From positions 1-64,000 of the forward strand of contig OY725494.1 of assembly GCA_963281255.1 (NCBI GenBank): 64,000 nt of DNA, read 5' to 3'. Of this stretch, positions 1 to 38,493 are shown piece by piece (within the stretch, counting starts at the first letter, position 1; the number at the start of each line of letters is the position of its first letter). Source of the stretch: Aphrocallistes beatrix. Taxonomy: Eukaryota; Porifera; Hexactinellida; Sceptrulophora; Aphrocallistidae. The position numbers and the translations under genes were made by a program. Below the pieces are notes generated by a model. That model did not search any database, was not told where the DNA came from, and saw only the letters and a program-made list of their open reading frames with translations.

Positions 1-3000
1 GAAAAATGCTCCAAATCACCGGCTATTTCAATTGCTTCCGAACTGAAAATGCTCACTTTCACTTTGCTCTTATAACAAGGTTTCTTACAGAAAATGCCTA
101 GCTTCGCTCTCATTTGGCCACATTCTTTTCTCAAAATGGCACTGTACCCCCCCACAGGGATGAAAAATGCTCCAAATCACCGGCTATTTCAATTGCTTCC
201 GAACTGAAAATGCTCACTTTCACTTTGCTCTTATAACAAGGTTTCTTACAGAAAATGCCTAGCTTCGCTCTCATTTGGCCACATTCTTTTCTCAAAATGG
301 CACTGTACCCCCCCACAGGGATGAAAAATGCTCCAAATCACCGGCTATTTCAATTGCTTCCGAACTGAAAATGCTCACTTTCACTTTGCTCTTATAACAA
401 GGTTTCTTACAGAAAATGCCTAGCTTCGCTCTCATTTGGCCACATTCTTTTCTCAAAATGGCACTGTACCCCCCCACAGGGATGAAAAATGCTCCAAATC
501 ACCGGCTATTTCAATTGCTTCCGAACTGAAAATGCTCACTTTCACTTTGCTCTTATAACAAGGTTTCTTACAGAAAATGCCTAGCTTCGCTCTCATTTGG
601 CCACATTCTTTTCTCAAAATGGCACTGTACCCCCCCACAGGGATGAAAAATGCTCCAAATCACCGGCTATTTCAATTGCTTCCGAACTGAAAATGCTCAC
701 TTTCACTTTGCTCTTATAACAAGGTTTCTTACAGAAAATGCCTAGCTTCGCTCTCATTTGGCCACATTCTTTTCTCAAAATGGCACTGTACCCCCCCACA
801 GGGATGAAAAATGCTCCAAATCACCGGCTATTTCAATTGCTTCCGAACTGAAAATGCTCACTTTCACTTTGCTCTTATAACAAGGTTTCTTACAGAAAAT
901 GCCTAGCTTCGCTCTCATTTGGCCACATTCTTTTCTCAAAATGGCACTGTACCCCCCCACAGGGATGAAAAATGCTCCAAATCACCGGCTATTTCAATTG
1001 CTTCCGAACTGAAAATGCTCACTTTCACTTTGCTCTTATAACAAGGTTTCTTACAGAAAATGCCTAGCTTCGCTCTCATTTGGCCACATTCTTTTCTCAA
1101 AATGGCACTGTACCCCCCCACAGGGATGAAAAATGCTCCAAATCACCGGCTATTTCAATTGCTTCCGAACTGAAAATGCTCACTTTCACTTTGCTCTTAT
1201 AACAAGGTTTCTTACAGAAAATGCCTAGCTTCGCTCTCATTTGGCCACATTCTTTTCTCAAAATGGCACTGTACCCCCCCACAGGGATGAAAAATGCTCC
1301 AAATCACCGGCTATTTCAATTGCTTCCGAACTGAAAATGCTCACTTTCACTTTGCTCTTATAACAAGGTTTCTTACAGAAAATGCCTAGCTTCGCTCTCA
1401 TTTGGCCACATTCTTTTCTCAAAATGGCACTGTACCCCCCCACAGGGATGAAAAATGCTCCAAATCACCGGCTATTTCAATTGCTTCCGAACTGAAAATG
1501 CTCACTTTCACTTTGCTCTTATAACAAGGTTTCTTACAGAAAATGCCTAGCTTCGCTCTCATTTGGCCACATTCTTTTCTCAAAATGGCACTGTACCCCC
1601 CCACAGGGATGAAAAATGCTCCAAATCACCGGCTATTTCAATTGCTTCCGAACTGAAAATGCTCACTTTCACTTTGCTCTTATAACAAGGTTTCTTACAG
1701 AAAATGCCTAGCTTCGCTCTCATTTGGCCACATTCTTTTCTCAAAATGGCACTGTACCCCCCCACAGGGATGAAAAATGCTCCAAATCACCGGCTATTTC
1801 AATTGCTTCCGAACTGAAAATGCTCACTTTCACTTTGCTCTTATAACAAGGTTTCTTACAGAAAATGCCTAGCTTCGCTCTCATTTGGCCACATTCTTTT
1901 CTCAAAATGGCACTGTACCCCCCCACAGGGATGAAAAATGCTCCAAATCACCGGCTATTTCAATTGCTTCCGAACTGAAAATGCTCACTTTCACTTTGCT
2001 CTTATAACAAGGTTTCTTACAGAAAATGCCTAGCTTCGCTCTCATTTGGCCACATTCTTTTCTCAAAATGGCACTGTACCCCCCCACAGGGATGAAAAAT
2101 GCTCCAAATCACCGGCTATTTCAATTGCTTCCGAACTGAAAATGCTCACTTTCACTTTGCTCTTATAACAAGGTTTCTTACAGAAAATGCCTAGCTTCGC
2201 TCTCATTTGGCCACATTCTTTTCTCAAAATGGCACTGTACCCCCCCACAGGGATGAAAAATGCTCCAAATCACCGGCTATTTCAATTGCTTCCGAACTGA
2301 AAATGCTCACTTTCACTTTGCTCTTATAACAAGGTTTCTTACAGAAAATGCCTAGCTTCGCTCTCATTTGGCCACATTCTTTTCTCAAAATGGCACTGTA
2401 CCCCCCCACAGGGATGAAAAATGCTCCAAATCACCGGCTATTTCAATTGCTTCCGAACTGAAAATGCTCACTTTCACTTTGCTCTTATAACAAGGTTTCT
2501 TACAGAAAATGCCTAGCTTCGCTCTCATTTGGCCACATTCTTTTCTCAAAATGGCACTGTACCCCCCCACAGGGATGAAAAATGCTCCAAATCACCGGCT
2601 ATTTCAATTGCTTCCGAACTGAAAATGCTCACTTTCACTTTGCTCTTATAACAAGGTTTCTTACAGAAAATGCCTAGCTTCGCTCTCATTTGGCCACATT
2701 CTTTTCTCAAAATGGCACTGTACCCCCCCACAGGGATGAAAAATGCTCCAAATCACCGGCTATTTCAATTGCTTCCGAACTGAAAATGCTCACTTTCACT
2801 TTGCTCTTATAACAAGGTTTCTTACAGAAAATGCCTAGCTTCGCTCTCATTTGGCCACATTCTTTTCTCAAAATGGCACTGTACCCCCCCACAGGGATGA
2901 AAAATGCTCCAAATCACCGGCTATTTCAATTGCTTCCGAACTGAAAATGCTCACTTTCACTTTGCTCTTATAACAAGGTTTCTTACAGAAAATGCCTAGC

Positions 3001-5276
3001 TTCGCTCTCATTTGGCCACATTCTTTTCTCAAAATGGCACTGTACCCCCCCACAGGGATGAAAAATGCTCCAAATCACCGGCTATTTCAATTGCTTCCGA
3101 ACTGAAAATGCTCACTTTCACTTTGCTCTTATAACAAGGTTTCTTACAGAAAATGCCTAGCTTCGCTCTCATTTGGCCACATTCTTTTCTCAAAATGGCA
3201 CTGTACCCCCCCACAGGGATGAAAAATGCTCCAAATCACCGGCTATTTCAATTGCTTCCGAACTGAAAATGCTCACTTTCACTTTGCTCTTATAACAAGG
3301 TTTCTTACAGAAAATGCCTAGCTTCGCTCTCATTTGGCCACATTCTTTTCTCAAAATGGCACTGTACCCCCCCACAGGGATGAAAAATGCTCCAAATCAC
3401 CGGCTATTTCAATTGCTTCCGAACTGAAAATGCTCACTTTCACTTTGCTCTTATAACAAGGTTTCTTACAGAAAATGCCTAGCTTCGCTCTCATTTGGCC
3501 ACATTCTTTTCTCAAAATGGCACTGTACCCCCCCACAGGGATGAAAAATGCTCCAAATCACCGGCTATTTCAATTGCTTCCGAACTGAAAATGCTCACTT
3601 TCACTTTGCTCTTATAACAAGGTTTCTTACAGAAAATGCCTAGCTTCGCTCTCATTTGGCCACATTCTTTTCTCAAAATGGCACTGTACCCCCCCACAGG
3701 GATGAAAAATGCTCCAAATCACCGGCTATTTCAATTGCTTCCGAACTGAAAATGCTCACTTTCACTTTGCTCTTATAACAAGGTTTCTTACAGAAAATGC
3801 CTAGCTTCGCTCTCATTTGGCCACATTCTTTTCTCAAAATGGCACTGTACCCCCCCACAGGGATGAAAAATGCTCCAAATCACCGGCTATTTCAATTGCT
3901 TCCGAACTGAAAATGCTCACTTTCACTTTGCTCTTATAACAAGGTTTCTTACAGAAAATGCCTAGCTTCGCTCTCATTTGGCCACATTCTTTTCTCAAAA
4001 TGGCACTGTACCCCCCCACAGGGATGAAAAATGCTCCAAATCACCGGCTATTTCAATTGCTTCCGAACTGAAAATGCTCACTTTCACTTTGCTCTTATAA
4101 CAAGGTTTCTTACAGAAAATGCCTAGCTTCGCTCTCATTTGGCCACATTCTTTTCTCAAAATGGCACTGTACCCCCCCACAGGGATGAAAAATGCTCCAA
4201 ATCACCGGCTATTTCAATTGCTTCCGAACTGAAAATGCTCACTTTCACTTTGCTCTTATAACAAGGTTTCTTACAGAAAATGCCTAGCTTCGCTCTCATT
4301 TGGCCACATTCTTTTCTCAAAATGGCACTGTACCCCCCCACAGGGATGAAAAATGCTCCAAATCACCGGCTATTTCAATTGCTTCCGAACTGAAAATGCT
4401 CACTTTCACTTTGCTCTTATAACAAGGTTTCTTACAGAAAATGCCTAGCTTCGCTCTCATTTGGCCACATTCTTTTCTCAAAATGGCACTGTACCCCCCC
4501 ACAGGGATGAAAAATGCTCCAAATCACCGGCTATTTCAATTGCTTCCGAACTGAAAATGCTCACTTTCACTTTGCTCTTATAACAAGGTTTCTTACAGAA
4601 AATGCCTAGCTTCGCTCTCATTTGGCCACATTCTTTTCTCAAAATGGCACTGTACCCCCCCACAGGGATGAAAAATGCTCCAAATCACCGGCTATTTCAA
4701 TTGCTTCCGAACTGAAAATGCTCACTTTCACTTTGCTCTTATAACAAGGTTTCTTACAGAAAATGCCTAGCTTCGCTCTCATTTGGCCACATTCTTTTCT
4801 CAAAATGGCACTGTACCCCCCCACAGGGATGAAAAATGCTCCAAATCACCGGCTATTTCAATTGCTTCCGAACTGAAAATGCTCACTTTCACTTTGCTCT
4901 TATAACAAGGTTTCTTACAGAAAATGCCTAGCTTCGCTCTCATTTGGCCACATTCTTTTCTCAAAATGGCACTGTACCCCCCCACAGGGATGAAAAATGC
5001 TCCAAATCACCGGCTATTTCAATTGCTTCCGAACTGAAAATGCTCACTTTCACTTTGCTCTTATAACAAGGTTTCTTACAGAAAATGCCTAGCTTCGCTC
5101 TCATTTGGCCACATTCTTTTCTCAAAATGGCACTGTACCCCCCCACAGGGATGAAAAATGCTCCAAATCACCGGCTATTTCAATTGCTTCCGAACTGAAA
5201 ATGCTCACTTTCACTTTGCTCTTATAACAAGGTTTCTTACAGAAAATGCCTAGCTTCGCTCTCATTTGGCCACATT
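1..5276. repeat. 161-bp satellite array, about 33 copies
   Basis: A head-to-tail tandem repeat with a 161-bp period runs from the left edge to 5276, about 32.8 copies. The copies I compared are identical. The last one breaks off after the motif ggccacattc and unique sequence follows. The array enters from outside the window, so its full length is unknown. Each unit holds a run of seven C before acagggatg. Short gaaaatgc-type motifs recur at about 45-bp spacing inside the unit, which hints at an older, shorter repeat. A 61-codon open frame occurs on the minus strand of every copy, but 161 is not a multiple of 3, so the frames overlap and cannot fuse. I read it as satellite DNA, not genes. Confidence 0.97.
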
Positions 5277-6262
5277 CCTTACAGAATTATGAATATTTTT
5301 TTACATAGTATGTTTATATCCATGTTCCAAAAATGTTTGTGGTTTGAGATACATTCTGTGATCAAAATTAGTGATAATTATGACCAATGTTACTTCCAGT
5401 ACTTCATTGTCACTTTAGTGCTTACTATTGTAGCGTTGATCGAGATGGATTATGCAGCTGAATGTGCTGGTGAAACTTAAGGACAGTCTTTTAAGATTCC
5501 TGCGAAGTTCCATCTATCCAGGAGCTACGCGTTTCTTGTGCGTATGTTTGGATACAAGGGAGAGAAACGTCCGTTTACTACCATCAGAGTTGCACTCGGG
5601 ACCGGCTGTTCCGCAAGCCCGCAACAGACCGCACAATACATACTACTCGACCACTGTCAGGTCAGTCAGGTCAGTCATTGACGACATAACTCGCCATCTT
5701 GTTAAGACGATTCGGGCGCAGATTATTTAAATCAAAATTCTTTAACATTCAACTATTTCACTTATGTTGCTAGGTTTACTTTGCTCTTATTCCAATTAAT
5801 TCTTCGTTGTTTTCTTTATTTTTCTCAACTATTGATACATGGATTGGAAAAAGATTTACTCTCCCCTTCTACTCTGAAACTAAGTAACTAGTTGTTTTTG
5901 AATTCATTCAGGGGGTTTGTTGATTTATTTTCCCGATAATTTACTTTAATGCACGCTGATATACATTTAAGACGATTGCAAATGCTATTTGCTATTGCTT
6001 ATGTTGCCAGGTTAGATGTCCTCAAATATGTATCGAAATTTATATATTTATTTTCTTGTTTTATTCGTTAGAATCAAGACTCAGAGTTGCCTACTTTCAC
6101 AAGATATATTTACACCATAGCTTTGGAATGGGAAGGTTTAACAATCACTAAATATATACTACTTATTCACCCTTTCATTTCTGATTTGTTTCTACCCCAT
6201 ATGACTAATTTAATTGTTATTTCTATAAGAATAAGTTACAATAGCATACATCGTAACTTATT
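5277..6262. other. Unassigned spacer right of the satellite
   Basis: AT-rich sequence with only short open frames. No splice-linked coding signal, RNA gene or element with clear ends was seen. Confidence 0.5.
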
Positions 6263-6299: not shown

Positions 6300-6890
6300 T
6301 CTGCTGTAACTGCGGCGTAGCCTTTACGAGGATATCCTGGAACTGTAGCGTTACCTTTCCGAAGATAACTTATAGCTGTAACGTAGCTTTCGCGGAGATA
6401 TGCTGTAGCTGTAACGTAGATTTCTCGAAGATATGCTGTAGCTGTAACGTAGCTTTCGCGGAGATATGCTGTAGCTGTAACGTAGCTTTCCCCAAGATAT
6501 GCTGTAGCTGTAACGTAGCTTTCCCCAAGATATGCTGTAGCTGTAACGTAGCTTTCGCAGAGATATGCTGTAGCTGTAACGTAGCTTTCGCGGAGATATG
6601 CTGTAGCTGTAACGTAGATTTCCCGAAGATATGCTGTAGCTGTAACGTAGCTTTCGCGGAGATATGCTGTAGCTGTAACGTAGCTTTCCCCAAGATATGC
6701 TGTAGCTGTAACGTAGCTTTCGCGGAGATATGCTGTAGCTGTAACGTAGCTTTCCCCAAGATATGCTGTAGCTGTAACGTAGCTTTCGCAGAGATATGCT
6801 GTAGCTGTAACGTAGCTTTCCCCAAGATATGCTGTAGCTGTGAAGTAGCTGTGACGTAGCTGTAACGAGCTTTCCCGGAGATATGATGTG
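6300..6890. repeat. 33-bp minisatellite (about 16-17 copies)
   Basis: Tandem 33-bp units built on tgtagctgtaacgtagcttt followed by a variable tail (cgcggagatatgc, ccccaagatatgc or cgaagatatgc). The tail variants alternate, so the array has diverged more than the satellite to its left. Because 33 is a multiple of 3, frames stay open on both strands (an 11-residue Cys-rich repeat on plus, alternative repeats on minus). Open frames on both strands are expected from the period alone, so I do not call a gene. The right end decays into ctgtgacgtagctgtaac-like pieces near 6840-6940. Confidence 0.93.
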
Positions 6891-7300: not shown

Positions 7301-7857
7301 TGCTGTGTGGGACCGGGGAGAGTATATATATACGGGTGAAGAAGCTTCAGAAACTATATTGCCGGCAATATTCGCTATACCTTCTTCAACGCTTCACCTC
7401 ATCACCCCCGGGGGCATCGCTACACAGCCAACTCTCCAGCAGGTCAGTATTATCCTACTCTTACACTTGACAAATAGACTTTACAAATAGACCGACCTGA
7501 ACTTTTCTCTTCTAGAATTCTCACCGTCAGATTCAGGCTGAAGGACTACCAGATCTTCAGACTGAGGGACTACCAGATCTTCTGACTGAGGGACTTCCAG
7601 ATCTTCTGACTGAGGGACTACCAGATCTTCTGACTGAGGGACTTCCAGATCTTCTGACTGAGGGACTTCCAGATCTTCTGACTGAGGGACTACCAGATCT
7701 TCAGATTGAGGGACTTCCAAACTGCCAGACCGTCGAGCTAAGGTATGTGGTAAATCTTAACGCCATCACTCACTTCTTTCCCATTTTCAATCTAATCAAC
7801 TCCCTCCTTCTTTCTAGGTGTGAGATGTCTCTAGCCTCATTCCTCACTCATCGCTAA
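7293..7857 (+). CDS. Predicted three-exon gene carrying an 8-residue minisatellite repeat
   Basis: Not a family I recognise. One continuous frame results if exons 7293-7442, 7516-7742 and 7818-7857 are joined. Exon 1 ends CCAGCAG|gtcagt, intron 1 (73 bp) ends ttttctcttctag; exon 2 ends GCTAAG|gtatgt, intron 2 (75 bp) ends ccttctttctag. Reading phases agree at both junctions (0, then 2), giving 138 residues. Exon 2 encodes about eight copies of the octapeptide TEGLPDLL, so its reading follows the 24-bp DNA repeat. An AATAAA lies at 7918-7923, about 60 bp past the stop. No signal peptide or membrane segment is visible. Caveat: a good TATA-like box sits inside exon 1 (near 7323-7334). If that is the promoter, the ATG at 7293 would not be transcribed and the RNA could be non-coding. 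Splicing looks more secure than coding. Confidence 0.5.
7533..7727. repeat. 24-bp minisatellite (about 8 copies)
   Basis: Units of ccagatcttctgactgaggg plus actt or acta repeat about eight times with few changes. The array lies wholly inside exon 2 of the predicted gene at 7293-7857. The 24-bp period keeps frames open on both strands; the plus-strand frame is the one that agrees with the flanking splice sites. Confidence 0.93.
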
Positions 7858-20591: not shown

Positions 20592-20599
20592 TATATAAA
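20592..20599 (+). promoter_or_regulatory. TATA box of Maf-like gene 1
   Basis: TATATAAA lies 61 bp upstream of the ATG at 20653. Matching TATA boxes precede the other two Maf-like genes at similar distances. Confidence 0.65.
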
Positions 20600-20652: not shown

Positions 20653-21039
20653 ATGCCAAAACGTGTAATAATCAACACTTACGGAATTAGCGAGTTAGAA
20701 CTGACTCAAATGACTAATCTCGAATTCGCACAACTCACAAAAGAGAAGAGATTTTCTCCTGAACAAGTTGCGGTATTAAAAAACCACAGACGTCTCCTCA
20801 AAGTCAGAGGATACGGAAAAGATTTCCGGCGAAGAGAGAGGGACCACTTGGACACACTGAGAGAGGAGAAGCAGTTGTGGGAGGCAGAAAGGCAGCGACT
20901 GAGAGCGGAGATTGGTTGGTACAAGGAACAGGTGTCTGTGCTGGAGTCTATCCAGCTGCTAGATAACGTCCTGCAACCACAGGACACATATTTCACACCT
21001 ATATACTCACACCCTTACTTCCTATCAAATGATATCTAG
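20653..21039 (+). CDS. Small Maf-like bZIP protein 1, 128 aa
   Basis: The layout matches small Maf proteins. An extended homology region (ISELELTQMTNLEFAQL, compare LTDEELVTMSVRELNQHL) is followed by LKNHRRLLKVRGYGKDFRRRE, which aligns with [21 protein letters not shown]. A helical zipper follows (HLDTLREEKQLWEAERQRL...). Role: probably a sequence-specific DNA-binding or dimerising transcription regulator. Odd: the Maf Asn is Val and AASC is GKDF, so the usual bZIP base-contact residues are changed, while the RGY signature is kept. A short tail of about 30 residues follows the zipper. Intronless, with TATA at -61 and AATAAA at 21057-21062. The 3' part is nearly identical to gene 2. Confidence 0.75.
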   Translation: MPKRVIINTYGISELELTQMTNLEFAQLTKEKRFSPEQVAVLKNHRRLLKVRGYGKDFRRRERDHLDTLREEKQLWEAERQRLRAEIGWYKEQVSVLESIQLLDNVLQPQDTYFTPIYSHPYFLSNDI

Positions 21040-21056
21040 ACACATCACGTATCTTC

Positions 21057-21062
21057 AATAAA
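21057..21062 (+). promoter_or_regulatory. AATAAA poly(A) signal of Maf-like gene 1
   Basis: Canonical hexamer 18 bp past the stop codon. Confidence 0.55.
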
Positions 21063-22050
21063 TGCTCTATTTACATTCTCAAATGTATCACTTCTTACTT
21101 TGTTAAATCAATTTGTAACATTTTAATACAAATTCTAATTAAACAAATAATGATACGTCTTTTACTGAACTAATGAATGATAGCAAATCTTATGAGTTAA
21201 TCTAGCACTTAGCTTAGAGAAGAACTTCAAAAGCAAATTCGTTTATGGAATTTCTTTGAGGATTAGGTCTCGAATGGTAGATGGTCGGTTGTAATAATAT
21301 AAATACTGTAATTACTGTGCTGATGAATTTAATTTTGCCATTGAAAATGGCTTTAGAGTAATTTTAGTATATACAATTCTTAAATTACTGAATAAGACCA
21401 CAAAGGTAAAATAATTAAGAACCAATAGGAACAAGCGATTAAACGTAGTGAAACTTCTACAAAGACTGAGAACATGAACATCGTGTCTAACAGCAGTGGT
21501 GGAACCGCTGATGTATCCCATTGCCGAGAATGATTATCTGGATCTCACCTTGAATAGCTATCATATATCGCATCTCTTTTCCATGATTTTAATGCATCAA
21601 CATTCTATGATAGCTGATGCCATATAAACTCGTGGCCTGAAATTTCACAGCTTAGCTGATTCGTTTTGAAAAAAGTAATATAAGCTCAGTATTAGTGCTG
21701 AATGCCTTGTATGTTTGTTCGTAGAAAAAAACCGGTTCAGATGCAAGAGAGTATGGCTTATGATAGCTAATGATGAGAAGACACAAACTTAGACGAACCA
21801 ATCGAGTACTGAGCCTCTGCTTTCCAAGCAATCTCTCTTTCGAGGAGTTTAGTCTAGGACTGTTTCAATTTGTTAGAAAGTGAAACTAACAGAAAATACT
21901 CTACTGTCAAATGCTAAGCTGAGAATTGAATACACAATGCAGGATATACAGTAAAAAAACAACTAAGATTTCTACACCTAAATATTTAAACTAAAAGTTG
22001 CATGCAGAATCATCGAAATTCATACTCGCCGCTTTCTGATTGCCCCTTAA
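21063..22050. other. AT-rich spacer between Maf-like genes 1 and 2
   Basis: No gene or clear repeat was seen; only short non-coding frames are present. Confidence 0.5.
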
Positions 22051-22054
22051 TCCG

Positions 22055-22066
22055 TATATATAAAAG
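22055..22066 (+). promoter_or_regulatory. TATA box of Maf-like gene 2
   Basis: TATATATAAAAG, 58-69 bp upstream of the ATG at 22124. Confidence 0.7.
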
Positions 22067-22123
22067 GAGGTGCCGAGAAACTCAAATATAGAAACAAACA
22101 AACAAACAAATTCAAAGAAAAGA

Positions 22124-22426
22124 ATGCCTAAGAGACTAAGATTGGAATCGTTTGGGTTTAGCGAGGCAGAGATGGTTGAGCTGGAAATGCATGAGCTCCT
22201 CTCGTTGTGTCGGGAAAAGGGACTCACCGAAGAGAACCTAGAAGTCATTAAGAACTACAGACGCCTCCTCAAAGTCAGAGGATACGGAAAAGATTTCCGG
22301 CGAAGAGAGAGGGATCACTTGGACACACTGAGAGAGGAGAAGCAGTTGTGGGAGGCAGAAAGGCAGCGACTGAGAGCGGAGATTGGTTGGTACAAGGAAC
22401 AGGTGTCTGTGCTGGAGTCTATCTAG
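22124..22426 (+). CDS. Small Maf-like bZIP protein 2, shortened, 100 aa
   Basis: Starts at the ATG at 22124 (MPKRLRLESFGFSE). The extended homology region (FGFSEAEMVELEMHELLSL) differs from gene 1, but from 22261 on the DNA is almost the same as gene 1 from 20790: only four differences in about 236 bp. One of these turns the CAG Gln codon of gene 1 into TAG, so this protein ends at VLESI and lacks the 28-residue tail; the former tail coding sequence persists as 3' flank to about 22496. The basic region again reads RRLLKVRGYGKDFRRRE. It is either a functional shorter isoform-like paralog or in early decay; the zipper is intact. Confidence 0.72.
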   Translation: MPKRLRLESFGFSEAEMVELEMHELLSLCREKGLTEENLEVIKNYRRLLKVRGYGKDFRRRERDHLDTLREEKQLWEAERQRLRAEIGWYKEQVSVLESI

Positions 22427-23139
22427 CTGCTAGATAACGTCCTGCAACCACAGGACACATATTTCACACCTATATACTCACACCCTTATTTCCTGTAAAA
22501 CTCAACTACAAACTTCAAACATTAAATTAATTTTAATCGCATTTAATCATTAAATTGCTGCTTTACTCAATGCAAATCAACCTTTATATTAAATAAAAAA
22601 CTCCGAAAATATTCTTTAAATAAACTCACAATTTAGAATTATAAAACAGGAATGAGATACGTATGCTCTAAATGCAAATTACTTAAAGGACATTTGTTCC
22701 AGAAGCAGGCTATAGGTCATCCTACCGTTTGCTAATCTCCCTGATTAACTCGGAATTTGCTGAATTGATCCATTCAATAGAACCATTAGGTTAACAAATT
22801 TTAAAAATATCGGTCACAGAGCGATATTGCAGTTCAAATCGTGAAAATATGCATAAAGAAATGTTAATAACTCATTATGTATCCACTTTATGGCCATCTA
22901 GGATTCTAAGTAATAAAATACCCAAAATTAGCTGTTAGAAGCGATGAAATTTCGCGAGAAAGGTAAATGAAGTACATCCACAAAATAAAGTTATCCTATG
23001 TGCGAAATTTGGTAGGAATAGGACTGTTAAATTTCGCAGGATTTCACGGATGTAGCATACCGTCGATACCATGAGGACATGTCCCTATGGAAGCAGTACT
23101 AAAATCAAATGATGATCATTACGAAGATTCTTCATTGTA

Positions 23140-23319
23140 CAGTAGAACTCGGTTAGTTCGGTTAGTACGTACTCAGGATACAACGTACTTCGGCTTAGTA
23201 CGTACTCATTTCTCTGAACCAGAATTCATATATTATATAGATTCCTATGTAATATCAACTCGGTTAGTACGTACTTTTTTCCGCTTCCCGGAGGGGTACG
23301 TACTAACCGAGTTCTACTG
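23140..23319. mobile_element. Pogo/Tigger-like MITE, 'cggttagtacgtact' family
   Basis: A 180-bp element beginning CAGTAGAACTCGGTTAGT and ending in the reverse complement ACTAACCGAGTTCTACTG, flanked by TA on both sides (target duplication). The inner sequence repeats cggttagtacgtact. A second copy lies in a MED13 intron (59323-59448). The CAGTAGAAC-type ends and TA target are known features of pogo/Tigger-type Tc1-mariner elements. It has no coding capacity. Confidence 0.85.
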
Positions 23320-24582
23320 TAATAGTATCACCTCGCGAATCAGAGCAAACCAATACATTCAGTGATGTAGCTTTGAAATTAAGTTACAGTCATAAGACCT
23401 GATTTCAGCAACTAATCGCTATAGAGGCCGGCAGGATTCGTCGAACTGTTTAAGCAAGAAAGGCGGCGACATTGCATTGAATGTCTGACCAGCCCAGACA
23501 CTCAATAATACTTACGAATGGAAGTCTGTAATACAATGAAATACTTGATTAGACTCAATTCCGGTTCATAGTTATTTTGAGAAATTGAAACTCGCGAGGT
23601 AAGTTTCTAACAAATGATTATAATTCATAAATACAGATACTTATTTAATACACCGGATATGTAGATGTGGAAATTGTAATATTCCAAGGAAAATGTCAGT
23701 GAAAGTATATTAATATTATCATTTCAGTATAATCAAATAAAACAAATTTAAATTTGGAATTGCAAGATAAATCATTTCAGTTAAGAACAGAGTTTCACTG
23801 AAAATATCTCTTCAGTTTAGCAGGAATTTTATGATAAATGAAGTCAGGTTGTTTATAGCTATTGAATTTCACTGAGCGTCTTGCTGACAACAAAATCACA
23901 TTATTCCTTAGTCAATAAAAATGTTGTAATACAATACAGTCTTCATCTAGCTAGCTGGAATAGCACGAGGTTACTGGAATAGCTCAGCACAGCAATTACA
24001 AGAGACTTGTGTTACAGAGTCTGTTATCTCCATTATAGCATAGCTCCATGTGATCGAAATAAAGAGAAAAGCTCCAAATACAAACAATCTATTTATAGCC
24101 GAGCACGAGAGTGCTTGGAAAGGAGAATAGAAACAAGGACCCTGCACTCTACTTCCAGATGTAGCTGGAACTAAAAATGTTTAGAGTTTTCTATGATCTA
24201 ATAAAAATTGTAATATTTTTCTTGGTAGCACAAGACATATCTTGTGTTTGATAATATCACAGACAGATTACACATAGAGTCTCAAAATAGATGTTTACTA
24301 CTCTGCAGTGGCGTAAGGTACTTTTAAGTAAATTAATAGTTAGAAATAATGAGCCCCATGACCTGGTTCTAAAAACCCCACTTGATGATGGAGTCATAAA
24401 TTCAAGTGCAACATGTGAGGAAATATTTCAGGAAATATCAAATGTGATAAGACTTCAATAGTGACTAATTCCTGCAAACACAAATGGTCGATGCTGAAAT
24501 CACGCGTTTCGTAATCAAACGAGATAATTTCCAATAATAAACTGACTTAGCAATTAGTAGCAAATATTAGTTAATAATTATA

Positions 24583-24714
24583 AGACCCATACAAGATGCA
24601 ACTTTGCTGCATGAAAAATGTAGCATGGAAATAGTTCTACCGTAATTTCGTGCAACATTGTTGCATGAAAACTTGATTACAAATAACTTTGTTGCATCGT
24701 ATCAGGAGTCTTTA
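24583..24714. mobile_element. Degenerate inverted-repeat element
   Basis: The left end agacccatacaagatgcaac and the right end, read on the other strand, agactcctgatacgatgcaa are alike. Inner gttgcat/atgcaac repeats add to the fold. Probably an old non-autonomous DNA element; family unclear. Confidence 0.45.
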
Positions 24715-26614
24715 TGATTACAGAATAAATGTAGAAAAGATGATGCAATTATAGCATAGGACCTCTCTTCTAGGAAACCTAAGGAGTGAGTGGAGAGTGA
24801 AAGTAGATTTGCAGAGTTACCTAACACAACATAGACAGAGAAGTAGAAACTAACATAATTAACTACAAACAAATTTCAGTATGACGTCTTAGGAGATGAA
24901 CTCCGGAAGTATTATTTGTTGATCGAAGCACCTGCGAGAAACTTTATCGATTCAATCCGTGTTCTGTAATTAACTTGAACTTTCTGGTTTAATGAATGTG
25001 TATAATCAGGTTTTATAGAGTTTAATGAAAATTTGATTTACAAAAATTACTTGGATGTAGTTTACCAAAAAATACGTGCAATTACAATGATAAAATTGGA
25101 GTCAGCAATCTAAATTTAGAAAAGTATATCCGGATACACGCCTGCCGATGTGTAAGGGCAAACTCGTGCTTGCTCTAAAGCTCAATGCTAACCAGCGTTT
25201 TCCTGTAGCGAGAATAGTGAAAGAAAGTTCAAGCAGCTTATCTGTATTCGTTAATCCAAATAGTCATTATACTTATATGTAGCATAATACTATAGAAAAT
25301 ATACAGTGATTCAATGCTCCATATTATTATGTTGCAATGCGCCATTCCATTTACTGAGATAATGTATCTTTCGCAGATTTTTAAGAAACATTACTCAAAA
25401 AATAATATTCGTTTAAAAACAACGGAAGTGTTCGCATAATTATAAGAAATGTAAATAACTTGTGAGTTCAAAGTATTTTGTTTATCTCAAACTATCGAGT
25501 AGACACAACAAATTTTTAAAACTAAAAAGAGAAATTTAAAAGAGAAAACAGATTTCAGTGAACCTCAAATTCTGTTTCAACTTTCGCTGAAAAAACTCTC
25601 CAAAAAAAATCCAAAAATGTAGCAGCCAACTTTCAAGCAATTCAAAGTGAAAATGCTTAGCTTCAATTCCCCATCCACTCACAACTTGCTGATGGAATCA
25701 GATATCACTATGCACACCAAACCGATGTATCAGAGTGTTCTGTGTGTTCAGCCTGTACGAGTATCAGCCTCGATATTCGCTTAATATATGAAATATCATT
25801 AAATTTTAAATAATTATTCATCATTTCTCACGGTTAATAGTTTGATTGGGTTTTATTACAGCCAGAGAGGATGTATACTACTAACAGCACATAGATTCTA
25901 AACTAATTAAAAATAGACTTTCAAGGATAATGATTTGGAAAATAAGAATGAGAAGGAAATGATAATAATTCTAAGGTCCCCATCCATCTTACGACGACAT
26001 ACGTAGAAGCTCCAGCACAAGTCCCTGATTCGGAAGTAAGGTTTTTCGCAACAATGTTGGTTTCGATGTGACAAAACTAGTGCAAAGCCTTTCTGTTTGA
26101 ATTCTAAATAATATGAAATTTTCGTAAGATCATTATTGGTTATCAAAATTTTAATTATAATTGTGGTTCCTATGAAAGGATGTGTGCAGCTATTACTAAT
26201 AAAATATCTTCAAATTTCTTTGCAAATGCATGACTACAAAACTCGACGTAGGAATTCGAAGGAACTAACGTATCTTCTACAGAACAGATCTATCTTCTAC
26301 AAATCTGCTCAAAACTCGGTTAATTTAATTAAATTAATTAAGCCATTAGTAATACTGACAAACCCCAATAATATCTTATGAATAATATTCATAAGACGAA
26401 GATCTATAAGGTTCGGGGCTGTTAGAAGCACTTCAAGAATTCGTACGGATAAATTTTTGTGTTGACATCTGTTTTCTCCCTCGGTGTATATCTGGAGAGG
26501 AGTTAGGATTGAAAAATGTTGGAAACAAATCAGTAATGAAATAATACATAAAGCAAAAGGGCAGTAGAATTGACAGAATAGTGAAACTATACAGTCAGGA
26601 AGTAGAGCAAAAAG

Positions 26615-26622
26615 TATAAATA
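26615..26622 (+). promoter_or_regulatory. TATA box of Maf-like gene 3
   Basis: TATAAATA, 67 bp upstream of the ATG at 26682. Confidence 0.6.
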
Positions 26623-26681
26623 GGATTCAGAAGGGGAAAAATATCAAAATAATATTTATCAAAAATACATACTAAGTCAAA

Positions 26682-26975
26682 ATGCCAAGAAAAATAACAA
26701 AGGACACACACGGACTAACTGAACAAGATATCTGCACGCTTGGAAATGCAGATTTAAAGGCGAAAGCTAGCATTTTGGGTCTCACAGAAATTCAGTTGGA
26801 GGATATTAAGAAGTATCGGAGATTGCTCAAAGTCCGATGCTACGGAAAAAGTTTCAGAACAAAAGAGAGGTCAGAAATAAACCAACTTAAAAAGAGGAAA
26901 GACCTGCTGAAACAGGAACAAGAGCGTCTGCACCAAGAAATTTATTTCTACCAAACTTATCTCCGCCAGTTCTAA
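26682..26975 (+). CDS. Small Maf-like bZIP protein 3, 97 aa
   Basis: A diverged third member. The extended homology region reads HGLTEQDICTLGNADLKAKA, then LEDIKKYRRLLKVRCYGKSFRTKERSE aligns with the Maf basic block, followed by a Lys/Glu/Gln-rich helix (LKKRKDLLKQEQERLHQEI). Here RGY has become RCY and the AASC motif is GKSF; the Asn is again Val. The protein ends soon after the zipper, like gene 2. Intronless, with its own TATA. It shows no near-identity with genes 1 and 2 at DNA level, so it is an older duplicate that escaped their homogenisation. Confidence 0.7.
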   Translation: MPRKITKDTHGLTEQDICTLGNADLKAKASILGLTEIQLEDIKKYRRLLKVRCYGKSFRTKERSEINQLKKRKDLLKQEQERLHQEIYFYQTYLRQF

Positions 26976-27587: not shown

Positions 27588-30463
27588 TCAAGACAAAGTA
27601 ATCAACTGTCCGTAGGGTTTCCGCAAATTAACAAAATCTATCAAAGCTCTGTATCTGCACTGACTTAGACGGGATTTCAGGACACGTCTGTAGTCCAAGG
27701 AATGTCTGAGGATGCTGTCTCTAGCCAGGCTCTTCAAGCTCGGAATTGGAGAGATTAAAATGAATCGATCGCTGCTCTGTAATGCTTTGAGGTAATCCAT
27801 GCAAGTTTGGTCGCTGTAATCTACTGCGTTTGGATCTGCATTGAGTGCGAGCAGGTGCTGAGCTAATTCTCTGTTCTTGTAAAGGATACTAATGTGCAGA
27901 GGAGTTGTACCGTCGGACCCCCGGGCATTCAGATCCTCTCCGAACTCGAGGAGGAACTCCACTAACCCCTGAGGAGAAATCTTGACGATTTCCTTTAGAT
28001 TAGTGCAGAGTTCAAGTTTGGGAGAGTTAAAGGCGACAATAACACTAGACACAAGTGAGTATCTCCGACCGGCGAATCGTCTCCAAATGTCTAGAATCTC
28101 CCTTATATACTGATGGAGACTCTCCTGCGACGAAGGACAGAAAGTGGCGTGGTCGTAGCACAGCCATAGATACGTCACGGAAACGGAGATCAGCTCTTCC
28201 CATGCGACGCACGAGAGAGCCAAGCGATGGTTGAGAAGCTTCATAATGTTAAGACTGAAGTACTCGCTTACGATTGGATGGAGTGAGTCGAATATTTCCT
28301 GGTCTGTGAACTGACTGAGAACCTGTTGAAGGGACAAATAACAACCATCAAGCCCACTGCAATGAAGACATGGAAAAGCGAAAATAAATATAAAAGTGCA
28401 CATCTACACCATAGAGGTAGTCCACATGCAAAATTTGGTCAGAACCGTGCGTACGTAATAGTACACCGTTATAAGCCATAAGGGCATCTTCCTATACACT
28501 GCTTGGCCAAAAGTATTGGAACACATTCTAATATGTGCCACTTTTGCCAAAGTGGCACAACCCATTGAATACAATATTAAACAAGTGTAAACATTGTGAT
28601 ATCAATAGAAACTGTCCCTCCGACCTCTTCCACTAAACTTTTGTTGATTTCCTTCAATGGGCCCGTTTCCCTGCCACCTGTGCTACTTATGGCACATGGT
28701 GGCACACATTAGAATGTGTTCCAATACTTTTGGCTAGGCAGTGTAGGATCAGCACTAAGCTATGTCATAACATGCCTTGATGAGAGCGTAGAGTTCGCGG
28801 GAGATGTCTGTCTTGTGCAAGACATACTCGCTGAGTAGCCTACACTCCCTGAGACCAGGGAATGGATCCATGAACAACTGCAGGCAGCACGCGGTCAGCT
28901 GGTGGATTGGTGTGAGGTTAGCAACACCTAAGTTGTACTTCCGGTACTTCCGGTTACACACTCGCTTACAAGTGCGTCTCATCTCTATATCCAAAATGGG
29001 ATTAGGCATACCTATACAATGGATTATAAGATTTTAAGTGCATTAGGATGTAGGTACAAAATCGGATTAGAGGACATTAAACAGGAGAAATGGACAGGAA
29101 ACAGAAGAAATGGGCATCTACATTAAACTTAACAATGGACAACAACTGTTACACTTTTGCATGAGAATAATATTGGGTGACACACCAATACATAATGTAC
29201 AAATGCTACATATAAATTCAGCTATGTACAATGCTAACATACCAACACTAACGTCTCTGTAGAAGTAAGAGTTGATGAGAAGTTTGACAGCTGTCACAGT
29301 GAGTTGGTGGATGTCACTCAACTTTTCTGCGTCACAGAATTCGTCCATTAAGTAGCCGTGCTCTACCCTACCGGTAAGCATCCCGTGCTTAACACCGGTC
29401 ACCAGAGTCCGCCGCATTCGTTTCCGGTAAATGTATTTCTTCTCACTGCAGATAATGTTGAGATAGTGGCACTGCCGGACAGTGGGCACCGTTAGGTCGC
29501 AGTGTTCCAGTAAGAATTCGGTCATACGCTTGTCTACGTTGTAAAGAGAAGCCAGCAACGGAGTGAAATTCTGACTGTTCCGAAGGAGCTGGAGCTTAAT
29601 TCGACCCGATTCGATCAACTCTGAAATGATCGGAAACAGTTTATAAAGTCCCTTCTCTGCGATGTGGTGGAGACAGGTGTTGCCACTTGCGTCCGGTATA
29701 TTGACATCAGCGCCGCTCTCAAGCAGAAAACGAAATAGATCCTTGCTCACCCTGGAACTGTAAAACAAATAATGTTGTGGAGTATGGATAATACTAGCAT
29801 TTTTGTTCTTATCCATGGTCCTGAATAAATAAAGAGTCGACAGAATGAATTCATAGTCTAATTCTAAATGGCAACACACCGTGTGAGCATCACGTGGAGA
29901 CAGGTTTGCTTCTTGGGTCCAGGAGCTGAGTTGACGCCTGCGCCTCTCTCTAGCAGCGCGGCGACCAGTTGATGCACTATCATCACGTCGCACTCCTTTA
30001 CTGTCTCGATGAGAGGCGAGGAGAACACCAGAGGATTCGGGTGCAGGTCCAACGAGATGTGGTACTTACGGAGGAATAGATCGAGACAGTCCAAGTCTAA
30101 GCTGCGAGAGAGTGCGATGCCTGGAGAGACCAGGTGGCTACAGCAGTTGGAGAGGCCAGGGCAGTCGGGCGGGATTTGGTAGCGCTGTATCAACTCTTCA
30201 ATCCGCCGGTCCAGTCCGTTCCAGTTGCTGTGCAGCAGTTCCAACCAAGGACTCTGCTGAAAGGTGCACCAGCTGTATGGACTCGGAGGCCCCGCCCCGT
30301 AAACCAGTACCAGTCTGGCCTCTGTCGGGGAGAGGGGGTTCAGGAGAGAGAAGAATTCGTCCGAATTATCCATGAAAGGAATTAAATCCCAGACCTGAGC
30401 TTTGATGTTAGCTACCAGCAGCCTCCTCTCTACTCTGGACAGGGTATCCCCATGTGCAGACAT
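27588..30463 (-). CDS. FEM1-like ankyrin-repeat protein, four exons
   Basis: Exons on the minus strand: 29880-30463, 29243-29757, about 28770-28984 and 27588 to about 28362. Junctions 1-2 (CACG|gtgtgt...ttttacag|T) and 2-3 (GTTG|gtatgt...gatatag|AG) fit in phase. Ankyrin units are clear at TCLHVMLTR...LLESGADVNIPDASGNTCLHHIAEKG and at DLNARGSDGTTPLHISIL...ADPNAVDYSDQT. The last block, SLKSLARDSILRHSLDY...LIDFVNLR, resembles the C-terminal VHL-box of FEM1 proteins (TLQCLAARVIVNH...LETFVSLH), which recruits a CUL2 ubiquitin ligase. So it probably acts as a substrate receptor. The exon 3-4 junction is unresolved: the only phase-correct option I see is a GC donor (AAG|gcatgt) with CAACAG|GTTC. 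That intron is enlarged by a Tc1-like MITE. Confidence 0.7.
28497..28743. mobile_element. Tc1/mariner-type MITE, 247 bp
   Basis: Terminal inverted repeats of about 45 bp: the left end begins CACTGCTTGGCCAAAAGTAT, the right end complements to CACTGCCTAGCCAAAAGTAT, both continuing into tggaacacattctaat. TA flanks both sides. The core has no coding frame. It lies in the intron between exons 3 and 4 of the FEM1-like gene, only a few bases past the last open codon of exon 3. Confidence 0.9.
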
Positions 30464-30647
30464 TCTTTAAACCGATTGGGTTGCTAGGATGCTATGAACA
30501 CGTTTGAAATGATGAATTGGAGAAAATTTGAAACACAAACAATTTGGAAATATTGGCATCTTGATTAAAAGGAGTGCAATAATAACCAAAGAAACCATGG
30601 ATAAATCACTAAAGCGAGGTTCCTCCTTAACAGTACACAAGGAACAA

Positions 30648-34408: not shown

Positions 34409-34488
34409 CAGAAAATCTCACAACAATCACATAGACACATAACACAAGCAATTTTCAATTCAATTCATTGCACATAAGTCACAGTTCA

Positions 34489-35505
34489 ATGCAACCTGAA
34501 GTCGAACCCACTGTTCCGTACAAGGAACGCCCAGAGAAGTTTCTTCTCTTCCCATTCAATCGCCCCGCCGCCTTCTGGTATCCATTCAAACTGATGGAAT
34601 GGGGATGGAAAAAGGCGCTCAGATTCGTCGGTCCTGAGTTCATCGCCGAGTATTGGTCCACTGTTTTCCTGATTTCCTTCCCGATTGGAAGTGTCGCCCA
34701 GGTATTCTATGCTCAGAATCATGTCACTTTCTGGATCGGTGCAACATGGGGAACTATGATGGGTGTTATCTTCGGTATGTATACCGGTCTGGGTGTGTCT
34801 GGTGCCCAAATGAACCCAGCTGTCACTCTCTCGTTAGCAATCGTTGGTCGTTTTCCTTGGAAAAAAGTCCCGTTTTACTGGCTTGCTCAGTATCTCGGAT
34901 CTTTCACTGCAGCCGTAATTATCTATCTGTACTACTTCGACGCGATGAACAATTTCGATGGCGGATCTCGCGAGTTCAACGGAGTGAATGAGACGTATCG
35001 TGTGTGGGTAACTAGCCCACAACCTCACGTTGGCAACCTCAACAACATGTGGGATCAGTTCTGGTCGACATTCCTTCTCCAGTTCCTGACTCTCGCAATC
35101 TTTGACAAGCCCAACGCTGGTGTCCCCCATCATCTCCGTCCGATCGGCGTCTCCCTCATCCTCTTCACTCTCAACGTTTGCTTTCAGTACAACTGCGGTG
35201 CTGCAATGAATCCCGTCCGAGATTTCCCGCCTCGATGCTTCGTAGCACTCATGTGGGGTGCTGAGGTGTTCCGTGTGCACAACTACTACTTCTACGTCCC
35301 GATACTTGGACCTTTCTTAGGCGGACCCGTCGGTACCATTGCCTACATATTCTTCATCGAGACCCATCACTACCCGGCCCATAAGCCCCTCCCCATCTCA
35401 GAGGGATCTGCCAAGGACGAGGCAGTTCGCAACGGGAAGCAAGACGAACAGAACAGCATCCACATGTCTGTGATAAAGGAGGATGCGCCAGGACCTAGCG
35501 TATAG
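34489..35505 (+). CDS. Aquaglyceroporin-like MIP channel 1, 338 aa
   Basis: Six membrane segments and two half-helix loops. Loop B carries GVSGAQMNPAVTLSL (NPA at about residues 109-111). Loop E carries GAAMNPVRDFPPRCF: the second NPA reads NPV, followed by Arg and then Asp (about residue 245), the Asp being the mark of glycerol-permeable MIPs. Expected role: passive transport of glycerol, water or other small neutral solutes across the plasma membrane. The N terminus (PTVPYKERPEKFLLFPF) is shared with its neighbour on the other strand. I chose the ATG at 34489 because the frame above it has only non-ATG codons. Intronless, with a TATA promoter. Confidence 0.9.
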   Translation: MQPEVEPTVPYKERPEKFLLFPFNRPAAFWYPFKLMEWGWKKALRFVGPEFIAEYWSTVFLISFPIGSVAQVFYAQNHVTFWIGATWGTMMGVIFGMYTGLGVSGAQMNPAVTLSLAIVGRFPWKKVPFYWLAQYLGSFTAAVIIYLYYFDAMNNFDGGSREFNGVNETYRVWVTSPQPHVGNLNNMWDQFWSTFLLQFLTLAIFDKPNAGVPHHLRPIGVSLILFTLNVCFQYNCGAAMNPVRDFPPRCFVALMWGAEVFRVHNYYFYVPILGPFLGGPVGTIAYIFFIETHHYPAHKPLPISEGSAKDEAVRNGKQDEQNSIHMSVIKEDAPGPSV

Positions 35506-36495: not shown

Positions 36496-37512
36496 TTACT
36501 GGATTTCTGACGCTGGGTCCAAATGGACCTGATTAGCTCCGTTTTTCTCCGACTGTGGAAGGAAATGTTCTCTCTCTGAGTTGGAGGAACGCGGCGTTCT
36601 TGAGTCGAATGAAGGATTGGAACTTGGGTAGTGGTGCGTTTCTATGAAGAATGTGTAGAGCAGAGCTCCGAACGGTGCTCCGACCAAGGGACCGATAATC
36701 GGAATCCAGAAGTAGTAATCGTGCAGTCCGAACAGCTCGGGGCCCCAGAGAATCGCGGCGAAACAACGCGGTGGGAAGTCTCTGATTGGATTCATAGCTC
36801 CGCCTGCATTGTAAGCGAAGCAGACACTCACTGCGAATATTATCAGTGAGACGCCCACCGGTTTCAAATAGTGGACTAAGCCTGCATTCGGTCTGTCCAT
36901 GATGGCTAGAATCAGGAACTGCAGTAGGAATGTACTGAACAGCTGGTCGAAGAAGATGTTGAGATTTGAAACGTGTTCTTGTGGATTCGTCGTCCAAACT
37001 CGATAACTTTCATTATTTCCGTTGTAGTATTCCATTATTCCTCCGTTGTAGTGATTCATCGCGTCGAAGTAGTAAAGATAGACAATGAAAGAAGCTGTGA
37101 AAGAACCCAAGAACTGAGCTATCCAGTAGAAAGGGACTTTCAACCAAGGGAAACGCCCAACCACTCCCAATGCAAACGTAACCGCAGGGTTCAAATGGGC
37201 TCCTGAGACGCCTAGGCAGGTGTACATTCCAAAGAATATCCCGATAGTCCCGCCCCATGTCCCTCCAATCCATCCCGTTTCCGACCGTTCACTGTAAAAC
37301 GCCTGTGCTGCACCACCCAGCGCGAATGTTATGAATATCATCGTGCCAAAGTACTCGGCGATGTATTCCCGACCGAAGAGACGTAGCAAACGTTTCCATC
37401 GCCATTCAAACTGCTTTCCGGGAAGCCAAATCAAGGACGGCCATTCGTAAGGGAACAGTAGGAACCTTTCTGGTCTGTGTTCGTACGGCACAGTTGGCTT
37501 CACCTCTTCCAT
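36496..37512 (-). CDS. Aquaglyceroporin-like MIP channel 2, 338 aa
   Basis: The same length and order as channel 1: N-terminal KPTVPYEHRPERFLLFPYEW, loop B GVSGAHLNPAVTFAL, loop E GGAMNPIRDFPPRCF. The second NPA is NPI here (NPV in channel 1), again followed by Arg-Asp. The proteins align along their whole length with differences mainly in the last 40 residues. The pair is tail-to-tail, about 1 kb apart, so it arose from an inverted duplication. Intronless. Expected role as for channel 1; the changed residue in the pore-centre motif may alter selectivity. Confidence 0.9.
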   Translation of the reverse strand: MEEVKPTVPYEHRPERFLLFPYEWPSLIWLPGKQFEWRWKRLLRLFGREYIAEYFGTMIFITFALGGAAQAFYSERSETGWIGGTWGGTIGIFFGMYTCLGVSGAHLNPAVTFALGVVGRFPWLKVPFYWIAQFLGSFTASFIVYLYYFDAMNHYNGGIMEYYNGNNESYRVWTTNPQEHVSNLNIFFDQLFSTFLLQFLILAIMDRPNAGLVHYLKPVGVSLIIFAVSVCFAYNAGGAMNPIRDFPPRCFAAILWGPELFGLHDYYFWIPIIGPLVGAPFGALLYTFFIETHHYPSSNPSFDSRTPRSSNSEREHFLPQSEKNGANQVHLDPASEIQ

Positions 37513-38493
37513 CTTAAGTTATCCTACAGGATTAAATGCAATTGATAAGGAGACAAAAGGTGATTTGCAAGCATATAATCTGTTGTGTAGTCTATTGACA
37601 GCAGTGCTATTCACTATAATGATTCTGCAAACTTGCAAATGAGCGCTTTGAATTAACCTTCACAAATGCATGACATCTTTTGAAAGTTTGCATTCGGGAT
37701 TATGATAACTTCAAAATGCTAATTCCTGAGCAACATGCTTGTAACGAGGGGGAAGTTGAGAATCTATGCATGCATTTGCGCCCCTTCATTGTTCATTAAA
37801 ATCAAATTAAGGAGGAGATTATAATATTCTTACAATATATAATTTATTTCTCTAATTAATGGACTATAAACACTTTTCAAATCCCTTCACTCAACTATAA
37901 CGAATGAGTTAAAACTGGGAGAGCAAAACATAAGACTAAATGCAGCACAAGAATACAATATTAATTACCTTGGGTAGATTGTACCTTAGTTTTCTCAATC
38001 TGTGATATGCCAAGAGTTTGAAATTTAATCTCAAAAGCTTTTCAGGGTATTAATACAGAACATAAGCGTGAGCCAATCCCTTCGCATGACCTCATTGGAC
38101 TCTATTGATTCCTCTTTATTAGAAAAGCTGTTATTACTTCAGTTATCAAAGCGTGATTTCATGAATACTCTCCTCGGTGATATAACCTTTTCATGTACTG
38201 TTATAGCTTTAGAGTTCCACCGTCGTACACAAGTCTGTTTTTTCAAGACTTTTATAACCATTATCGAGTTTTTTGTAAAGGATGAGATTTCCTGTTCTTA
38301 GGCATCAACACGATTACACTAAAACTTATCTGCATAAAGGAGCGTGTCGCGCTTATGTATAACTCCTTTCTTATACCACTGGTCCCCCCTTACCCTTACC
38401 TTTCCCTGTCAGTCTAAATCATAAAGGCTTCGTGTTACTTTGGTCTCACATTGTCCCAAATAAACTCCACTGCATTAGAGAGTGTATAAGTGA
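37513..38493. other. Spacer between aquaglyceroporin 2 and MPI
   Basis: AT-rich divergent promoter region of two genes. A 77-codon frame at 38068-38301 has no recognisable features and no ATG start. Confidence 0.5.

Follow-up and report, generated by a model that had tools for sequence, protein, structure and literature searches.

Small intronless Maf-like bZIP genes with replaced DNA-contact residues form a large family in the glass sponge Aphrocallistes beatrix

The window analyzed here is the first 64,000 nucleotides of contig OY725494.1 (assembly GCA_963281255.1) of the glass sponge Aphrocallistes beatrix, the very start of the contig designated C8. It carries three short, single-exon genes for basic leucine zipper (bZIP) proteins of the Maf type in which the otherwise near-universal asparagine of the DNA-reading helix is a valine. 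These genes are probably functional. They would belong to a radiation specific to this lineage, with about a hundred small Maf-like genes that lack introns, are TATA-driven and fall into subfamilies that probably recognize altered half-sites. What was observed is the structure and copy number of the genes, their TATA boxes, their place in the family (by profile and predicted fold), the replaced residues and the pattern of conservation. The features of the cluster, in window coordinates, are as follows.

20592..20599, plus strand: TATA box of gene 1, TATATAAA, 61 bases upstream of the ATG
20653..21039, plus strand: gene 1, Maf-like bZIP, 128 amino acids, single exon (open reading frame, bZIP_Maf profile, predicted-fold match to MafA, MafG and MafB)
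20692..20748, plus strand: extended homology region (EHR) of gene 1, two predicted helices at residues 14-19 and 22-32 (structure model)
20779..20841, plus strand: basic region of gene 1, residues 43-63, with R9, R14, Y16 and R21 kept and N13 replaced by V, A17 by G and C20 by F (alignment)
20803..20805, plus strand: codon GTC of gene 1, Val at the bZIP Asn position 13 (alignment)
22055..22063, plus strand: TATA box of gene 2, TATATATAA, 69 bases upstream of the ATG
22124..22426, plus strand: gene 2, Maf-like bZIP, 100 amino acids, single exon (open reading frame, bZIP_Maf profile)
22274..22276, plus strand: codon GTC of gene 2, Val13 (alignment)
26615..26622, plus strand: TATA box of gene 3, TATAAATA, 67 bases upstream of the ATG
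26682..26975, plus strand: gene 3, Maf-like bZIP, 97 amino acids, single exon, with RCY and GKSF (open reading frame, bZIP_Maf profile)
26832..26834, plus strand: codon GTC of gene 3, Val13 (alignment)

An earlier note on this DNA had described the three open reading frames (ORFs) and their TATA boxes and had assigned the proteins to the Mafs by eye. The frames are indeed uninterrupted from ATG to stop, each gene has its TATA box, and the assignment is confirmed in three ways. Genes 1, 2 and 3 score 37.1, 39.0 and 39.0 bits with the bZIP_Maf profile (PF03131) against a Pfam cut-off of 22 (E values 4.8e-9, 1.2e-9 and 1.2e-9). In a PDB sequence search the best solved relatives of gene 1 are MafA (E 2e-4) and MafG (E 5e-3), and its predicted fold superposes on MafG and also matches MafA and MafB. 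The structural alignments give 25-28% identity to MafG, and a Foldseek search with the predicted fold returned no match at E below 0.001. The two short helices N-terminal of the basic helix that characterize the EHR are present, the Maf-specific Tyr16 is found in all three genes, and zipper heptads follow the basic region, with d-positions L W L Y L in genes 1 and 2 and L L L Y F in gene 3. The RGY signature that had been reported holds for genes 1 and 2 but reads RCY in gene 3. Judged by sequence and model, the three are Maf-type bZIP genes and no artefact, but they are out of the ordinary. They are not expected to be strict small-Maf orthologs because the split between small and large Mafs has been placed after the divergence of cnidarians and bilaterians (PMC4736632).

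The departure from the Maf pattern lies in the residues that meet DNA, numbered here by the scheme of PMC4736632 (Asn13, Ala16, Ala17, Ser/Cys20, Arg21). The bZIP signature N-x7-R is broken in all three genes, with Val in place of Asn and Arg21 retained, and the canonical small-Maf trio Asn13/Ala17/Cys20 is replaced by V, G and F. The reported change of AASC to GKDF (genes 1 and 2) or GKSF (gene 3) was likewise found. In MafG, Asn61 hydrogen-bonds the flanking cytosine, Tyr64 lies beside it and Arg57 reads the next guanine, the protein contacting mainly the outer bases and not the inner TPA response element (TRE) (PMC9756947). Mapped by the present alignment, which also provides the MAFA numbers, these residues are positions 13, 16 and 9; positions 8, 12 and 14 face phosphate in MafG. 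The claim that the replaced residues touch TGA(C/G) in small Mafs needs correction, since the MafG Asn meets the flanking G:C pair (PMC9756947). The MAFA and MAFB residues that correspond to positions 9, 14, 16 and 21 contact DNA, and their mutation is debilitating except for R272A in MAFA (PMC11626809). As aligned, the window genes retain all four of these putative anchoring contacts and replace the Asn that chooses the flanking base in MafG.

A profile search of the whole genome (100.5 Mb, 28 contigs; counts are lower bounds) places the window cluster among about a hundred such genes. It gave at least 65 bZIP_Maf matches at E<=1e-3 and at least 109 at E<=10, 93 of the 109 above the cut-off. 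Five matches were taken as ordinary bZIPs (C1:2972713, C1:6360349, C12:1318582, C16:531467 and C18:1963692). The alignment holds 105 ORFs, made up of 104 of the 109 matches and one extra ORF, with C16:531467, C18:1963692, C9:3010305, C8:2879272 and C8:2885099 left out. Position 13 is Asn in 31 of the 105 and another residue in 74 (M 25, S 18, K 9, V 7, A 4, I 3, R 2, L 2, C 2, Q 1, G 1). The loss is also found among the better-scoring members: 47 of the 65 matches at E<=1e-3 lack the Asn, 45 of these with Tyr16, as do 64 of the 91 aligned genes above the cut-off. Tyr16 is present in 64 of 105 genes family-wide, both Tyr16 and Arg21 are kept in 47 of the 74 Asn-less genes, and the zipper d-positions are Leu in most of the family. 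A survey of 896 bZIPs from 49 eukaryotic genomes lists no more than three kinds of exception for positions 13 and 21 together, exceptions to N-x7-R being known from oomycetes and Giardia; it counts 446 bZIPs in 20 holozoan genomes and describes the animal bZIP set as remarkably stable (PMC4736632). No such expansion was found reported for an animal in the open-licence literature searched; 'bZIP' and 'Maf' do not occur in the main text of the Oopsacas genome paper, and in the Aphrocallistes genome paper 'maf' appears only inside MAFFT and one bZIP factor is named as upregulated.

The 31 carriers of Asn13 comprise three ordinary bZIPs, four canonical Mafs and 24 small Maf-like genes. The canonical Mafs form a cluster at C18:38730-54220, 39 kb from the contig end, and have Asn13, Tyr16, Ala17, Cys20 and Arg21. 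Two of them are 83% identical across 350 residues, and three of the four were read as single ORFs that also have a TATA box. The 24 small genes (e.g., C1:443058-461220, C11:621279-622955 and C13:20492-27550) are a second branch in which position 16 is Ala, Thr or Ser and not Tyr in 21, and many of them, by eye, have seven additional residues in the zipper part of the alignment. A count of independent Asn losses on a tree of this genome alone (90 columns, 105 rows; 49 of 101 inner branches open, 12 starred) was set aside as only rough; it gave 8 changes, against 27 with shuffled labels and 1 forced by the starred branches.

TATA boxes are a common property of the family. Of the 64 genes with sufficient flanking sequence, 61 have TATAWA in the 200 bases upstream, compared with 26 of 64 downstream at equal G+C. 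After removal of similar promoters it occurs in 54 of 57, versus a mean of 24.7 in dinucleotide-shuffled sequence; the comparison is with the downstream and shuffled sequence of these genes.

The earlier note had argued that a change common to the whole cluster is unlikely to be decay. This argument is weakened by a tract that genes 1 and 2 have in common.

20779..21029, plus strand: tract of 251 bp common to genes 1 and 2, gene 1 copy, 96.8% identical with 8 mismatches
22250..22500, plus strand: the same tract, gene 2 copy; the part beyond 22426 is the leftover of the gene 1 C-terminal tail, behind the stop

The gene 1 copy starts at the basic region and stops just before the gene 1 stop. The flanks of the tract are unlike and the EHR halves differ. 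A gene 1 CAG is TAG in gene 2, which lacks the C-terminal tail of gene 1 while most of the tail DNA remains. The tract is a case of gene conversion or partial duplication that places the same helix and zipper behind another EHR and promoter. Because of this 97% identical tract, the basic regions of genes 1 and 2 are not independent witnesses. The argument is repaired by gene 3, which is identical to gene 1 at 6 of 36 EHR residues, 14 of 20 basic-region residues and 9 of 33 zipper residues, and by C8:4496831 and C8:4499173 near the other end of the contig. The latter two are near copies of each other and share V13, Y16, F20 and R21 with gene 3 at otherwise low identity.

The pattern of conservation would fit a helix that is kept for reading DNA. 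In all six groups compared, four of them Asn-less and each picked by its basic-region motif, the basic region is more conserved than the EHR and the zipper. In the MSQYN type the conserved fraction is 108/120 in the basic region versus 108/181 in the EHR and 152/276 in the zipper. The corresponding values are 35/60 versus 24/108 and 31/117 in the window type and 138/200 versus 203/360 and 182/498 in the MKKYR type, and the canonical Mafs have the same order (72/120 versus 89/202 and 146/284). Codon counts over whole ORFs, which are free of this choice of groups, give nonsynonymous divergence (dN) below synonymous (dS) for 75 of the 78 pairs listed, with the reservation that the pairs overlap and do not count as independent. 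For MSQYN-type pairs whose dS is saturated, dN lies between 0.21 and 0.35, and C8:4496831 and C8:4499173 differ by six synonymous changes and one nonsynonymous change. When the 87 alignment columns are ranked by within-group minus between-group identity, with groups drawn on all columns, positions 17, 13, 14 and 20 take the first to fourth ranks. Since these groups had used all columns, they were redrawn from the EHR and zipper columns only, at each of three thresholds once with all genes and once with the Asn-less genes (six settings). Under the strictest threshold and with all genes included, positions 13, 17 and 20 then rank 1, 2 and 3. The base-contact positions thus tend, by sequence, to be fixed inside subfamilies and different between them. 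The conserved basic region together with subfamily-fixed contacts argues against decay and against simple dominant negatives, and would favour altered half-site recognition over both.

Several results weigh against this reading. The selection of the six groups by basic-region motif is biased toward the basic region. With groups redrawn from EHR and zipper, the rank is 1-3 for position 17, 1-10 for position 13, 3-28 for position 20 and 16-43 for position 14, and hypergeometric significance is reached in only one of the six settings, the strictest threshold with all genes (p 0.0048; 0.065 in the other five). The subfamily signal at the putative contact positions is present, but it depends on the grouping. 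Nor is the contrast between base and phosphate contacts clean, because position 14, a phosphate contact in MafG, moves from rank 3 with all-column groups to the ranks just given. Some close pairs evolve fast, with dN/dS of 0.62 (C7:1009908/1013203) and 0.84 (a C6 pair), and dN/dS exceeds 1 in two pairs with few changes each. Arg21 is also lost in 22 of the 74 Asn-less genes, and part of the family may therefore bind DNA poorly. Finally, sites of the Maf recognition element (MARE), TRE and cAMP response element (CRE) types are not enriched near the Maf-like genes, and autoregulation through such upstream sites was rejected for this reason.

Dimerization, DNA binding, changed specificity and repression are predicted from the sequence. 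The products would be short nuclear proteins that dimerize through the leucine zipper and sit on DNA in the Maf layout. The EHR would pack where the basic helix begins, and this helix would be held on the DNA by Arg9, Tyr16 and Arg21. The base-choosing residues 13, 17 and 20, and perhaps 14, would be rewritten in each subfamily to recognize a half-site other than MARE. The flanking-C preference should be lost and another gained, since the lost Asn reads this base directly in MafG. The Val and Phe of the window genes would be suited to van der Waals contacts, for example with thymine methyl groups. As no activation domain is apparent in 97-128 residues, the proteins may be repressors or may pair with other bZIPs.

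Of the two interpretations in the earlier note, a lineage-specific Maf branch with new DNA specificity is the one that the conservation pattern favours. The other, that the proteins are dominant-negative partners that have lost their base contacts and keep canonical Mafs or other bZIPs off DNA by dimerizing with them, is improbable. Short proteins without an evident activation domain would suit such a role, as would the frequent loss of Asn13 and, in some genes, of Arg21. Charged Lys or Arg at zipper a-positions tends to disfavour homodimers. Such residues occupy position 35 in 52 and position 42 in 32 of the 74 Asn-less genes. However, an inhibitor needs no conserved DNA-reading helix, and yet in the Asn-less subfamilies compared it is the basic region that is conserved best. 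As a rule the new residues do not vary inside a subfamily. R8 is retained in 73, R9 in 66 and K12 in 53 of the 74.

It is about as improbable, or slightly more so, that the basic helix binds nucleic acid or chromatin without sequence specificity, or binds some other partner, the contact positions being under other constraints. In favour of this, the replacements are very diverse, with 46 different five-residue motifs among the 74 Asn-less genes, and the search upstream of the genes yielded no candidate target site. Against this, the base-contact positions 13, 17 and 20 are among the best separators of subfamilies while the phosphate-facing positions 8 and 12 rank 85 and 39 of the 87 columns (groups on all columns), and Tyr16 is retained in 59 of the 74.

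Decay of recent duplicates or of gene relics without function is very unlikely. The fast pairs (dN/dS 0.6-0.8, two above 1) could be taken for it, as could the loss of the gene 1 tail from gene 2 through the TAG, unless gene 1 gained the tail, but only one of the 109 matches has an internal stop, and the excess of dS over dN and the regular TATA boxes speak for maintained genes. Spread with a virus or transposon is just as hard to credit. Although the genes are intronless and dispersed over 18 contigs with several tandem and inverted pairs, and clusters lie near contig ends beyond expectation, three of the four canonical Mafs are likewise single ORFs with a TATA box, and a viral origin was rejected when a scan of a viral contig collection with gene 1 gave two pattern matches and no relative. 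For the placement, 110 places (ordinary bZIPs and the five unaligned matches included) fall into 60 clusters. On the 18 contigs whose length is known, 7 clusters come within 50 kb of an end, where 1.1 would be expected (p about 1e-4). One cluster end in range is enough for a cluster to be counted, which favours wide clusters, and a contig end may not be a chromosome end.

Among known systems, the small Mafs (MafF, MafG and MafK) are closest in having an EHR, a basic region with Tyr16, Arg9 and Arg21, and a zipper in short proteins with no evident activation domain, but the window genes have V, G and F at positions 13, 17 and 20, are intronless and belong to a family of about a hundred copies. 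The large Mafs (MafA and MafB) likewise have the EHR first, then the basic region and the zipper, and share R9, R14, Y16 and R21 as contacts to DNA, whereas the window proteins lack their long N-terminal part and have Asn13 replaced. A third likeness is with Zta, a protein not known to have the Maf EHR or Tyr16. A laboratory mutant of Zta, in which the basic-region Asn is changed to Ser, binds a new sequence (PMC13228511, preprint), although this is one engineered change and not a natural family with several linked replacements. The 'novel class' bZIPs of the oomycete Phytophthora sojae and its relatives are also expanded and have replaced the Asn (C-R, R-R and V-R classes), and most of the bZIP candidates of P. 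sojae are transcribed (PMC4046829). They are not from an animal, no Maf EHR or Tyr16 is described for them in the accessible part of that paper, and the 71 P. sojae candidates span all classes, whereas here the Asn-less genes are the majority of one Maf-like family. Replacement of the Asn has precedents in these last two, a Val class among them.

The basic-region Asn and Arg of bZIPs are among the most conserved DNA-contact residues of eukaryotes. It is tentatively suggested, as a possibility short of probable, that one animal lineage broke this near-universal code and evolved, from a Maf gene, dozens of subfamilies with their own half-sites, paired through their zippers, with conversion, as between genes 1 and 2, moving helices behind other EHRs and promoters. 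If true, this would parallel among bZIPs the large zinc-finger radiations of other animals. The 74 Asn-less Maf-like genes of one genome are a natural mutant library, in which one could ask directly how a half-site code changes and which residues are indispensable. They also bring many candidate regulators to an animal group in which Wnt ligands are reported missing from two glass sponges (PMC10282587). A wnt search of the present genome gave no match, but control genomes were likewise empty, which makes this result weak alone.

Upstream of the Maf-like genes, the sequence GAAANNGAAA, similar to an interferon-stimulated response element, occurs within 300 bp in 7 of 57 genes and downstream in 2 of 57; dinucleotide-shuffled sequence gave a mean of 1.85 and at most 6 in 100 shuffles, and the motif, chosen post hoc from a k-mer scan, is a lead only. 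The short repeat ACTCGGTTAGTACGTACT is found at 23138-23321 and 59323-59404 of the window, in five places at up to two mismatches. A 23-nt inverted repeat (23138-23160/23299-23321) lies at this repeat, which looks from its sequence like a small mobile element or a miniature inverted-repeat transposable element. The contig starts with a tandem array at 1-5277 (161-bp unit, 32.8 copies, 100% matches) that is possibly a subtelomeric satellite. It is followed by minisatellites at 6302-6850 (33-bp unit, 16.6 copies, open in several frames) and 7538-7719 (24-bp unit, 7.6 copies). An ankyrin-repeat gene on the minus strand (27588-28403 and 29118-30466) adjoins the Maf cluster, with more ankyrin-like frames, by eye, beyond it. 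Two aquaporin-family (MIP) genes of one open frame each are convergent at 34486-35505 (plus strand) and 36496-37515 (minus strand). In the mitochondrial genetic code of bilaterians, too, AGR is read as Ser, so that the codons point to a glass sponge as host only together with the absence of a wnt match. The mitochondrial COX1 gene of the sponge contains 11 TGA and 11 AGA codons, several of the latter at places of conserved Ser when compared by eye with the general COX1 pattern. AGR is listed as Ser in glass sponges and not in the demosponges tabulated alongside (PMC2267718).

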